Of a DNA stretch of 64,000 nucleotides, positions 46,545-49,775 are shown piece after piece. Every line of letters begins with the position of its first letter. The stretch's first letter is position 1. The position numbers and the translations under genes were made by a program. The notes beneath the pieces were generated by a model that ran no database searches, was not told the DNA's origin, and was given only the letters and a program-made list of their open reading frames with translations. The stretch comes from Ruegeria lacuscaerulensis (GTDB lineage: Bacteria > Pseudomonadota > Alphaproteobacteria > Rhodobacterales > Rhodobacteraceae). The DNA lies in the NCBI RefSeq assembly GCF_013034685.1, contig NZ_WQGO01000004.1:310001-374000 (forward strand), written 5' to 3'.

Positions 46545-47564
46545 TTAACTTAAGTCATGTATCTGTGACCAACAGGGTAACAGATCCCCTGTCTGTGGCG
46601 TCGCCTCAAAGATGGCGCGACCTATGGCGCGGGCCAGACAGACGGCCGCTGCGTGTCCCAGCGCTCCTATCTGCATCGGGTCACCCCCAAGCGGGCGGGT
46701 CCCCGTGCTGACTGCAAAGACCAGGTCCCCGTCGCCCGGCGTATGGGCGGGAACGATGGCGCGGGCAATACCATCATGGGCGGCAACCGCCATTCGATGA
46801 CATTGCGACTTGGACAGTTTGGCGTCGGTGGCGACAATCGCGATGGTGGTATTTGCTTTGTCCGGCGCCGCCGGGTGCATGGCCTGCGCCTTGCGGCTGG
46901 GGCCTGGTTGCCCCAGACCCGAATTCGGGTCGGGTCCCAGTCCTCCGAATTCACTATCCATTTCGAACGGCGCGGCCCAGAAATGGCGATCACCCGGCGT
47001 GGTGACACTGCCCAGTGGGTTCGCCGCCGCCAAAGCGCCGACCGTGATGCCATTGGGCAGAACGGCAGAAGCCGAGCCCAGCCCGCCCTTTTGCATCGCT
47101 GCCAATGCGCCGGTGCCGGCCCCAATGCTGCCGAGTTCAAATTGATCTGAGGCCGAGAGATACGCTTGATGACCCAAGCTGCGATACGGGTTTTCAACCC
47201 ATGCCTTTTCACCGCCGTTCAGCAAGTCAAACAGGATGGCGCCCGGAACGATGGGGACCACAGCCGCGCCGACGGCGAAGCCCCGACCCTGCGCGCGCAT
47301 GGCATCCGAGACGCCGGAGCAGGCATCTAACCCGAAGGCCGATCCCCCGGACAACACGATGGCGTCGACTCGGTCCACGGATTTGTCCGGGGCGAGAAGG
47401 TCAGTCTCACGCGTGCCCGGAGCGCCGCCCATCACATGGACCGATGCGATGAACGGGTTGGCGGAGGTCAGGACCGTGGTGCCGGATTTCAGCGCTGCGT
47501 CCTGCGCGTTGCCGACCAGAAGGCCGGGGATATCGGTGATCAGGTTTTTGGGTCCGGGTGTCAC
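46545..47564 (-). CDS. P1 family peptidase (S58, DmpA/BapA-like)
   Basis: A 339 aa Ntn-fold aminopeptidase of the DmpA family. The self-processing site is near KANTTIAIVATDA; the nucleophile is probably Thr239 or Thr240, at which autocleavage yields alpha and beta chains. TVLTS, LSGGSAFGLDACSGV and GAGTGA are typical of the N-terminal part. Possible beta-aminopeptidase or D-amino amidase. 82 bp after the SDR gene, same strand. Confidence 0.88.
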   Translation of the reverse strand: MTPGPKNLITDIPGLLVGNAQDAALKSGTTVLTSANPFIASVHVMGGAPGTRETDLLAPDKSVDRVDAIVLSGGSAFGLDACSGVSDAMRAQGRGFAVGAAVVPIVPGAILFDLLNGGEKAWVENPYRSLGHQAYLSASDQFELGSIGAGTGALAAMQKGGLGSASAVLPNGITVGALAAANPLGSVTTPGDRHFWAAPFEMDSEFGGLGPDPNSGLGQPGPSRKAQAMHPAAPDKANTTIAIVATDAKLSKSQCHRMAVAAHDGIARAIVPAHTPGDGDLVFAVSTGTRPLGGDPMQIGALGHAAAVCLARAIGRAIFEATPQTGDLLPCWSQIHDLS

Positions 47565-47645: not shown

Positions 47646-48392
47646 TCAGATACAGCGGCCACCATCGACCTCCAAAGCTGTGCCAGTGATCATGCTGGCC
47701 TCGTCCGAGCACAGGAATAGGGCGGCGTTTGCCATATCCTGCGGGGTTGAGAAACGGCCGAGCGGGATGGTTGAGAGGAATTTGGCGCGGATTTCCGGGG
47801 TGTCTTCGCCCATGAAGGATTTCAGCAGCGGGGTTTCACCGGCCACCGGGCAGATGGCGTTGACGCGCACGCCGGACGGGGCCAGTTCCACAGCCATGGT
47901 TTTGGTGGCCGTGATCATCCAGCCCTTGGACGCGTTGTACCAATTCAGGTTCGGGCGCGGCGACAGGCCCGCCGTGGAAGCCACGTTCAGGATCGCGCCT
48001 GCGCCGCGTGCCTTCATCGCCGGGACAAAGGCGCGAGCGGTCAGGTAGACAGATTTCATGTTCACGTTGAAGACGCGGTCGAAATCATGCTCGGTCACGT
48101 CCTCTAGCGGAGTTGGCAGGTGGGTAACGCCCGCATTGTTGACCAAAATATCGAGGGTTCCGAAGGTTGCGGCTGCGGCGTCGGCCATGGCCTGAACCGA
48201 AGCTCGATCAGCTACATCCACCTGTTGCGCGGTGGCTTGGTCGCCAAGGGACGTGGCCATGTCTTGTGCCGCGTCGCCGTTGATATCTGCAACCATCACG
48301 CGGGCACCTTCGGCTATGAATGTCTGCGCGATGCCTGCACCGAAACCGGATGCACCGCCGGTTACGATTGCCGTTTTACTCTTAAGCCTCAT
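47646..48392 (-). CDS. Short-chain dehydrogenase/reductase
   Basis: SDR of 248 aa. Coenzyme motif VTGGASGFGAGIA, NNAGVTH, catalytic Ser in NVASTAGLS and Tyr/Lys in WYNASKGW, all in normal order. The start at 48392 (MRLKSKTAIVTGG) has GAGGGCAAGG upstream. Substrate not assigned; glucose-1-dehydrogenase-like or 3-oxoacyl reductase-like proteins look the same. Confidence 0.92.
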   Translation of the reverse strand: MRLKSKTAIVTGGASGFGAGIAQTFIAEGARVMVADINGDAAQDMATSLGDQATAQQVDVADRASVQAMADAAAATFGTLDILVNNAGVTHLPTPLEDVTEHDFDRVFNVNMKSVYLTARAFVPAMKARGAGAILNVASTAGLSPRPNLNWYNASKGWMITATKTMAVELAPSGVRVNAICPVAGETPLLKSFMGEDTPEIRAKFLSTIPLGRFSTPQDMANAALFLCSDEASMITGTALEVDGGRCI

Positions 48393-48447
48393 AGCCTTGC
48401 CCTCCCGTTTGGTGGTCAGACTAGCAAGGCGCGGGGAAACTGCCAGT

Positions 48448-48867
48448 TCAATCTTCGTTAACCCGTCCGCGCAGTGCCTTGACGTCAGAGCGCGCCTTTT
48501 TCGCTGCCAGCCGCCGTTTAACCGAACCATAGGTGGGTTTGGTGGCGATGCGCCGTTTGGGTTTGACCAGCGCGCGGGAAATCAACTCGGCCAGGCGGGC
48601 GCGGGCCAATTCTCGGTTCCGGGCTTGTGAGCGCGTTTCCTCGCACTGGATGATGATCGCGCCGTCTTTGGTCCAGCGCCGTCCGGCCAACCGTTTCAGC
48701 CGCGCCTTGACCGGATCGGGCAGGGATGGTGAGCGCGCAGCCTCGAACCGCAACTCGACTGCGGTTGAAACCTTGTTCACATTCTGCCCACCAGGGCCGG
48801 AGGACCGAACAAAGGTTTCGGTCATTTCCCAGTCTTGCAGGATGATATCGTCGGTGATGCGCAACAT
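48448..48867 (-). CDS. arfB: Alternative ribosome-rescue factor ArfB (YaeJ/ICT1 family peptidyl-tRNA hydrolase)
   Basis: Releases the peptide from ribosomes stalled without a stop codon. 139 aa. GGQ motif in SSGPGGQNVNKVST is intact; the basic C-terminal tail RRLAAKKARSDVKALRGR enters the empty mRNA channel. The ATG at 48867 has AAGG 8 nt upstream. With smpB nearby (3.2 kb away) the window holds two rescue systems. Confidence 0.93.
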   Translation of the reverse strand: MLRITDDIILQDWEMTETFVRSSGPGGQNVNKVSTAVELRFEAARSPSLPDPVKARLKRLAGRRWTKDGAIIIQCEETRSQARNRELARARLAELISRALVKPKRRIATKPTYGSVKRRLAAKKARSDVKALRGRVNED

Positions 48868-48894: not shown

Positions 48895-48928
48895 AAACAA
48901 AAAGGGCCGCCCCGGTGGGACGGCCCTT
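48895..48928 (-). terminator. Strong terminator of the candidate small RNA
   Basis: Stem AAGGGCCG/CGGCCCTT (48902-48909, 48921-48928), extended by a 3 bp inner pairing, followed on the minus strand by TTTTTGTTT. It lies 28 bp before the arfB start, so it isolates arfB from upstream transcripts. Confidence 0.8.
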
Positions 48929-48998
48929 CGAAAGTACAGGAGGTTGGGTCGGTTAGATCAATCGACCAGCCGGGGTGATTACCCCGCCAAGGGCTGCC

Positions 48999-49055
48999 CT
49001 AGCAGGCTTTCCCCCCGGTTGTTCCGACACCTCTCTCCAATCTCTTTCTCGACAC
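48999..49055 (-). CDS. Possible 18-codon small ORF with an ideal Shine-Dalgarno
   Basis: GTG start at 49055 exactly 7 nt after AGGAGG; encodes a basic 18 aa peptide (V/M-SRKRLERGVGTTGGKAC) and stops at TAG 48999. The peptide may be a leader or have no function of its own. It lies in the candidate small RNA. Confidence 0.35.
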   Translation of the reverse strand: MSRKRLERGVGTTGGKAC

Positions 49056-49130
49056 TGGATCACCTCCTTTTCTATCTGTTGCGGTTGATAAGGATGGTGA
49101 CACAAGATGCGCTATTCTCAAAGCACTTTT

Positions 49131-49775
49131 TTACGCGGGCTGTGCAGTCAATCGGCCAACGATCACTTTGAACGGGATCAGGGCGATCAGGGCCAGCGAC
49201 AATTTCACCAGCCAATCCGCAAAGGCCAGCGTCACCCACAAGGGCGCCATCGGGCCGGTCAGCATGAAGGGCACGGGCTCCCACGCCCAGTTGATCGCGG
49301 CGTCCGCATTGGCACCGAAGAATGTGACCGAGGCCGAGAAGGCCAGCGTAAAGAAGATCGCAGTGTCCAGCGCAGACCCAACCAGTGTCGAGACCAGCGG
49401 TGCGCGCCACCAGCGTCCGCCGCGCAGCGAATTGAACACGGTGACGTCGGTCAGCTGCGCGATCAGGAAAGCGGTGCCCGAGGCTACGGCGATGCGCAGC
49501 GGGACAGCGGCATAGGTGAACCCGTCACCTTGCAACATGATCTGGCTGCCGATCAGCGAGCAGATGATGCCGGTGACAAACCCGGCGAACACGACCTTGC
49601 GGGCCGGGCCCACGCCATAGACGCGGTTCATGATGTCCGTGACCAGGAAGGCCAGCGGATAGGTAAAAGCACCCCAGGTCAACAGCCCGTCAAAGATCAG
49701 GAACTGGACCAGAAAGTTCGAGGCCACGACAATGGCGGCCATGGCAAAAATGCCGGGAATAAAGCTGCGTTGCAT
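49131..49775 (-). CDS. yhhQ: Queuosine precursor transporter (YhhQ/QueT-like, DUF165)
   Basis: Inner-membrane transporter of 214 aa, about six TM helices, of the family that imports preQ0/preQ1 or queuine bases. Typical are FAGFVTGIICSLIGSQ-type helices, TYPLAFLVTDIMNRVYG and RIAVASGTAFLIAQLTDVTVFN, and SALDTAIFF. The upstream region showed no known preQ1 riboswitch. It lies last in a minus-strand run with mepA and the phytase-like gene, 91 bp after the latter. Confidence 0.92.
   Translation of the reverse strand: MQRSFIPGIFAMAAIVVASNFLVQFLIFDGLLTWGAFTYPLAFLVTDIMNRVYGVGPARKVVFAGFVTGIICSLIGSQIMLQGDGFTYAAVPLRIAVASGTAFLIAQLTDVTVFNSLRGGRWWRAPLVSTLVGSALDTAIFFTLAFSASVTFFGANADAAINWAWEPVPFMLTGPMAPLWVTLAFADWLVKLSLALIALIPFKVIVGRLTAQPA

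Follow-up and report, generated by a model that had tools for sequence, protein, structure and literature searches.

The closest described relatives of the RNA reported here are the CC2171 RNAs, held by Rfam as family RF01867. CC2171 reportedly goes back to Landt 2008. For MH_s33, a Mesorhizobium huakuii RNA annotated as RF01867, the available part of PMC5596092 lists a 215-nt product, and RF01867 is among the families that gained one more covarying pair in Rfam 15, according to the available part of PMC11701678. The string CC2171 is absent from the accessible text of two Caulobacter sRNA papers (PMC11005374, PMC12559287); the naming there follows CCNA_R numbers, so the absence shows little. 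No identifiable match appears in the accessible portions of a small-proteome study of S. meliloti (PMC10117765), a Ruegeria sRNA survey (PMC4809877), and a study of sRNA-coded peptides (PMC5521070). In Caulobacter, profiling by Schrader et al. showed ncRNA regions to be untranslated, with the exception of two earlier ncRNAs that the available text leaves unnamed (PMC4117421); the general finding weighs against the translation-gated reading proposed below. The open-licence literature searched, as far as its accessible text extends, yielded no function for a CC2171-type RNA.

E. coli Spot 42 and SgrS are dual-function sRNAs. S. meliloti rnTrpL/peTrpL, for which the available part of PMC10117765 gives a ribosome profile of rnTrpL, resembles the present locus in being a small stand-alone RNA with a mini-ORF that is translated; the difference is that here the peptide drifts, whereas the initiation site is kept. 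The CcsR1–4 and SmelA075-type sRNAs share a CCUCC motif with the locus. In those RNAs, CCUCCUCCC sits in several hairpin loops, as described in the available part of PMC3927594, whereas here a single ACCTCC is predicted to be paired to the Shine-Dalgarno (SD) sequence.

The locus lies in Ruegeria lacuscaerulensis, within a window (the whole stretch of DNA that was analysed) of 64 kb. On the minus strand, between a yhhQ-type and an arfB-type gene, the order of parts is AAAAGGAGGTGATCCA, GTG, 18 codons, TAG, hairpins, ACCTCC, and terminator. The SD, the GTG 7 nt further on, the 18-codon ORF, the ACCTCC, and the terminator that the preliminary description had named are thus all present. The parts, with the two neighbouring genes, are as follows, in window coordinates.

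49131–49775, minus strand: yhhQ-type gene (Vut_1; Pfam PF02592), upstream
49117–49122, minus strand: putative −35-like element TTTGAG (TTTTGACA in many relatives), placed by eye in an alignment upstream of 71 family loci
49094–49099, minus strand: putative −10-like element CACCAT (family TGTGnCAnnCT), 17 nt from the −35-like element, likewise placed by eye
48901–49087, minus strand: predicted RNA of ~187 nt; the probable start near 49087 is set by the promoter-like site and the end by the terminator, and the RF01867 match runs from 49080 to 48903
49055–49070, minus strand: full-tail SD AAAGGAGGTGATCCAG, 16 nt, complementary to the 3′ tail of 16S rRNA (duplex −28.2 kcal/mol)
48999–49055, minus strand: mini-ORF of 18 codons from GTG to TAG, VSRKRLERGVGTTGGKAC, supported by stop-codon and frame tests; GTG at 49055–49053, 7 nt past GGAGG; coding part 49055–49002; TAG at 49001–48999
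49036–49059, minus strand: start-codon hairpin, TCCAGT (49059–49054) with ATTGGA (49041–49036), in the RNAalifold consensus
48930–49048, minus strand: long-range helix H1, GAAAG (49048–49044, codons 3–4) with CTTTC (48934–48930); two-sided changes at 5/5 pairs
48949–49027, minus strand: helix P4, TCGG (49027–49024) with CCGA (48952–48949); two-sided changes at 3/4 pairs, in the RNAalifold consensus
48970–49018, minus strand: helix H2, CCGGGG (49018–49013, codons 13–15) with CCCCGG (48975–48970); two-sided changes at 6/6 pairs
48987–49002, minus strand: hairpin H3, CTAGGG-CAGC-CCTTGG, with the stop codon within the stem; two-sided changes at 4/6 pairs
48939–48944, minus strand: anti-SD ACCTCC, predicted SD lock (partner 49067–49062); one-sided changes
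48901–48929, minus strand: intrinsic terminator with a 13-pair stem; two-sided changes at 10/11 pairs
48448–48867, minus strand: arfB-type gene (RF-1 domain; Pfam PF00472), downstream

Beyond arfB, the same strand carries a short-chain dehydrogenase gene and a Peptidase_S58 gene (46545–47564 and 47646–48530 of the window). The segment 48895–49130 folds at −101.6 kcal/mol, compared with −77.2 ± 5.1 for shuffles (z = −4.8; 0/200 as good), and the 181-nt block of the locus, used as a query, matches 112 of 149 family genomes at E ≤ 0.001, some of these matches being short or confined to the terminator. Both results bear out the earlier remark that the parts look too ordered for chance. A tRNA and tmRNA search found none.

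At gathering scores, Rfam returns nothing in the 64-kb window. A permissive scan matches the full RF01867 model (1–159) at E 4.8e-5, and this match is the only one at E ≤ 0.01 in the whole genome (E 8.7e-5). By sequence, the locus is a distant homologue of RF01867 that lies below the Rfam membership threshold (32.1 bits vs a gathering score of 75). The likeness consists of AAGGAGGUGAUCCAGUGUC near the 5′ end, the terminator, the size, and the full-length match. A further candidate for likeness is a helix of the model, joining the first codons to a segment just before the terminator. The model alignment leaves it unpaired in the present sequence; two-sided changes are found for it in the family and the class, RNAalifold omits it in the family, and the energy test within the family is flat (see below). 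Differences are that P4, H2, H3, and the ACCTCC lock are features of the Rhodobacterales family, and that Rfam types RF01867 as 'Gene; sRNA', whereas the ORF here appears to be selected.

The family belongs to the Rhodobacterales. Of the 149 family genomes, 109 contain a 17-nt start motif, and 6 of the remaining 40 contain a looser 24-nt motif; after addition of three genomes in which the 181-nt match reaches the 5′ part (G007, G096, G100), about a fifth of the genomes (~31/149) show no copy. Four of the six looser loci (L259–L262) have the class-wide start type AATG or GATG, with AAAGGAGGTGATCC(A/G)ATG or one base off. It is possible that these link the Rhodobacterales form to the CC2171 form.

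Outside the family, the initiation region AAAGGAGGTGATCC-N-(A/G)TG-TC recurs. AAAGGAGGTGRTCYNNTG is present in 60 of 289 class genomes, one copy each, and a reversed control pattern gave a single match in all. Across the phylum, the strict motif occurs in 50 of 86 alphaproteobacterial genomes vs 2 of 213 others, again one copy each. A related-motif scan gave at least 119 stretches, 80 of which were listed and used as named loci; carriers among the matches listed include Mesorhizobium, Bradyrhizobium, Methylobacterium, Novosphingobium, Sphingobium, Roseomonas, Cereibacter, and Gemmobacter. RF01867 itself matches 69 of the 289 class genomes at E ≤ 0.01 and exceeds the threshold in 9 of these. 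Two of 14 named controls match (Caulobacter vibrioides and Deinobacterium chartae), and a single one of the two exceeds the cut-off; the Deinobacterium match is probably due to chance. As judged from these searches, the RNA is widespread in the class yet far from universal under strict tests.

Several other identities were considered and rejected. Permissive Rfam matches on the same strand to sbrA, suhB/mmgR, and SorY have E values of 0.1 or worse and all fall over the 3′ end. Two Rhodobacter sRNAs, compared by description only and from partially available sources, are StsR, which is under RpoHI/RpoHII (PMC8307010), and Pos19, which is 219 nt long and in the RpoE regulon; both are unlike the present RNA with its sigma-70-like site. 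BjsR3 of Bradyrhizobium has a terminator stem in common with Rhodobacterales, according to its authors in the available part of PMC5082802.

The mini-ORF starts with GTG in 71/71 family loci and has exactly 18 codons in 69 of them. In 83 family-type loci, codon 19 is TGA in 37, TAG in 32, TAA in 12, TGG in none, and something else in two. Both purines thus occur at both positions. The preference for a stop has a Fisher p of 8.5e-13, with kinship uncorrected. Since pairing in H3 alone would permit TGG, the stop itself seems to be selected. The frame is kept as well: a stop before codon 14 occurs in frame 0 of one of the 83 family-type loci and in 25 and 25 loci in the other frames; among 111 other (class-wide) loci, the counts are 0 in frame 0 vs 46 and 52; and among 40 distinct class-wide types, 0 vs 17 and 24, counts that are not independent, as some control-frame early stops share one start motif (TCTAGTGA). 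The 80 named loci were chosen by SD and start motif, which in these tests predetermines the start and codon 2 but leaves the downstream frame free. The selection on stop codon and frame, as distinct from a footprint, indicates that the mini-ORF is translated, and this suggests that translation is part of what the RNA does.

What is selected could be the peptide. According to this proposal, the locus is a small mRNA whose peptide (VSRxxLExGVGT in the family, mostly kept, followed by six free residues) is the product, with the structure tuning its expression. In its favour, serine 2 is kept with synonymous changes (TCG 43, TCT 23, TCA 11), as is glycine 11 (GGG 46, GGA 35), and residues 6, 7, 10, 11, and 12 are almost invariant in the 83 loci. 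However, most of the conserved codons also belong to the initiation region or to segments that pair, codons 13–18 are free, and between orders the peptides share little past M/V-S (MSHC..., MSSD..., MSHGS...). We consider the peptide gene unlikely; even so, it is the likeliest of four rivals, followed by a 30S sponge, then by an arfB leader, and last by an anti-SD sRNA.

The SD is the part that the preliminary description understated. It proves to be 16 nt long in the window and complementary to the 3′ end of 16S rRNA in a Rhodobacter record (L255). The 16S gene in that record, identified by RF00177, ends in ...CGGCTGGATCACCTCCTTTCT / ...CTGGATCACCTCCTTTCT, and GAAAGGAGGTGATCCAG of the RNA is its complement. 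The 16S rRNA gene was not found in the searched R. lacuscaerulensis assembly. In that 4.6-Mb assembly, AAGGAGGTGATCC (49069–49057) occurs once, the 16S complement itself being outside the count. Contiguous complementarity to the 16S tail, with G:U allowed, is 14–17 nt in 113 of 117 anchored loci and 11 nt in the other four. These loci were not fetched by this motif, but their anchor needed AGGAGGTG and a near-motif, so loci losing the motif are invisible to the count; three of 120 loci had no accepted anchor and were left out (L104, L112, L121), although the motif is present in L104. Variants, for example GGTCC and GATCT, are wobble-compatible. The conserved stretch ends about where 16S helix 45 presumably begins.

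The computed duplex of tail and SD is worth ~−28.2 kcal/mol; a 7-nt SD would give −10.7. The computed cost of opening the SD is 11.1 here, with a family mean of 10.0 (n = 77) and a class mean of 6.0 (n = 70). Within the family, the extra SD length would thus pay for the lock, as computed on naked RNA, because −28.2 exceeds the opening cost of 11.1 and −10.7 does not. In Staphylococcus aureus, pairing past the canonical SD toward the start codon has been seen by cryo-EM and toeprinting, and this extended start-proximal pairing was shown to matter, as given in the available part of PMC13009471. The difference, on the same partial text, is that the S. aureus structure has two extra pairs and prediction extends them to many mRNAs, whereas here the pairing is 14–17 nt long and is found in one RNA per genome.

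An SD of this strength could also serve as a decoy: an abundant RNA would titrate either whole 30S subunits or their tails, with the ORF letting the subunits cycle off. The kept tail complementarity, with its wobble-compatible variants and strong duplex, is what such a sponge would be expected to have. Against it, there is a single gene copy per genome, a fixed-length ORF would be needless, and ribosomes outnumber most RNAs. We regard the sponge as quite improbable.

We next consider the structure. The starting set of 197 sequences was reduced by 3 near-duplicates and, after that, by 16 in which no terminator was detected; terminator-score and length filters left, for family + class, 73 + 70 sequences for alignment, 76 + 69 for the duplex-energy swap, and 77 + 70 for pairing probability. 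A hand-named structure of 44 pairs was counted on the 73 family homologues (alignment A1), the alignment from which it was drawn, which favours it: 91.3% of cells are paired and 28 pairs have two-sided changes, compared with a mean of 14.7 in shuffles (0/500 as high). When the partners are slid by 1–3 columns as a control, 35.8–58.5% are paired and 11–19 pairs have two-sided changes. By element, the paired cells in the family are 80% for H1, 97.3% for P4, 75.6% for H2, 83–85% for H3, and 98.4% for the terminator. The start-codon hairpin is 99.5% paired and nearly invariant, leaving little covariation to test. The two hairpins of the preliminary description take a somewhat different shape in the predicted fold, i.e., a compound hairpin (H2 enclosing H3, with the stop codon inside) and a small stem.

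ACCTCC or a close variant (e.g., ATCTCC) is kept in most family sequences. It had been proposed that it can pair with the SD, and this pairing is possible in 98.2% of cells across the 73 homologues, with one-sided changes and a G:U at one pair in 22/73. Its probability exceeds 0.5 in 64 of 70 homologues (70 of the 73 have an identifiable anti-SD). An SD lock is consistent with these one-sided changes but is not proven by them. The SD is paired at 0.96 in the family vs 0.66 in the wider class, where its partners are mixed; the lock may therefore be a family feature.

H1 shows its strongest signal class-wide, where codons 2–8 face the pre-terminator segment. Among 46 distinct 5′ types, the pairing score is 14.59 vs 12.29 ± 0.36 for permutations (0/5000 as high); the true partner ranks first among the 46 in 6 cases, with a median rank of 0.80, and a control segment is slightly high (71/2000). 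Examples are CATTGTCA/TGACAATG, ATGAGATT/AATCTCAT, and CATGAAT/ATTCATG. A duplex-energy swap test gives −14.9 vs −10.1 ± 0.35 class-wide and is flat inside the family (−5.93 vs −6.01). The probability of H1 is 0.02 in the family and 0.32 in the class; the low family value is attributed to competition from the SD lock and the start hairpin. SD:ACCTCC and H1 cross, and therefore a pseudoknot or two states would be required. To summarize, the structural covariation in relatives to which the preliminary description had looked is found class-wide and, for the named helices, within the family, with the caveat that the family consensus of RNAalifold itself (26 pairs, 13 two-sided, of which 10 are in the terminator and 3 in P4) contains, besides the terminator and P4, only the start hairpin and the SD lock, H1, H2, and H3 being absent from it.

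The genomic context bears on whether the RNA acts on its neighbour. In tblastn searches, yhhQ lies upstream on the same strand in 71/71 family loci (15/15 named family-type loci), and arfB, in the same orientation, follows downstream in 62 of the 71 (12/15 named). In the remaining 9 family flanks, including that of a congener (L003), arfB was not seen. Neither gene was found by tblastn near any of 46 class-wide loci, and one of 65 other named loci has both. Neighbours at the class-wide loci are for the most part different, on either strand, and in some cases common to close relatives. In one genome (L041), the gene for the signal recognition particle RNA (positions 962–1058) is ~450 nt away from the homologue.

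A promoter-like TTGAC-17-CAnnCT, recognized by eye, precedes the RNA; a consensus promoter scan does not call the −35-like element. With up to 3 mismatches, the 21-nt promoter form TTGACAAACACAAAATCTGTG was found only at this locus in 4/4 relatives searched. In some relatives (L081, L084, L091, L094–L099, L101), the promoter spacer itself is conserved, approximately AAACACAAAATCTGTG, and contains an inverted repeat, CACA-N5-TGTG, such as might be expected of a regulator site between −35 and −10. With its own terminator, a promoter-like site, and varied neighbours, the RNA therefore looks like its own transcription unit and not an obligate leader.

The conserved order in the Rhodobacterales nonetheless invites an attenuator model, in which ribosomes on the mini-ORF would determine whether transcription continues through the terminator into arfB, here 33 nt past the terminator stem. 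An attenuator should have a constant downstream gene in cis, and arfB is downstream in 62/71 family loci and 0/46 elsewhere; moreover, the terminator is paired in nearly all family cells, and no alternative antiterminator was noticed in the pair counts. An arfB leader is accordingly a poor candidate. Least probable of the four is a trans-acting RNA of the CcsR type that silences mRNAs through ACCTCC: the motif is well kept in the family, but it is predicted to be paired to the RNA's own SD and not exposed in a hairpin loop, no such Rfam match is found at gathering scores, and the suhB/mmgR match is weak (15.9 bits, E 1.3). Of the two identities offered at the outset, "regulated peptide gene or sRNA" is thus supported by the kept stop and open frame, the possible SD:anti-SD pairing, and the covariation in relatives, and the likeness to a CcsR-type anti-SD loop RNA is not supported.

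As to the nature of the locus, we are nearly certain, on comparative grounds, that it encodes a conserved, translated, structured RNA homologous to CC2171. As to its action, the reading that we prefer, and hold tentatively, is that of a stand-alone, translation-gated regulatory RNA, the Rhodobacterales form of the CC2171 RNAs, in which the gating is computed and the output in trans is conjectural. Its sequence-supported elements are the promoter-like site, the terminator of its own, the whole-tail SD, the kept start, frame, and stop, and the helices over the SD, the start, and the first and stop codons.

The proposed sequence of events is as follows. The free RNA would keep its start site shut through pairing of the SD with ACCTCC, the start-codon hairpin, and pairing of codons 3–4 with the CTTTC before the terminator. 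A 30S subunit would open the start site by 16-nt tail pairing, because ~−28 kcal/mol exceeds the opening cost of ~11; an ordinary 7-nt SD (−10.7) would not suffice. The translating ribosome would melt H1 to H3, and the 3′ part (ACCTCC/CTTTC) would thereby be released, either to pair in trans or to decay. The state of the RNA would thus report the ease of 30S initiation, and outside the family, the peptide would be a by-product or minor product. A broader version of the translation-gated reading, which we think possible but rather doubtful, is a class-wide initiation sensor: one RNA per genome, with an SD fitted to the full free 16S tail, would stay closed through its own structure until opened by a competent free 30S subunit, and its function would be the act of translating a short ORF indifferent in sequence rather than the peptide made.

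A family typed as an sRNA gene by Rfam thus appears to be translated and, over much of a bacterial class, retains an SD of unusual length. Even if the peptide is the only product, the gene has relatives in tractable genera (Caulobacter, Cereibacter, Mesorhizobium). If the gating holds, the RNA would offer a simple testbed for the trade-off of SD strength, structure, and initiation, and the Alphaproteobacteria would own a dedicated RNA that reads 30S availability.
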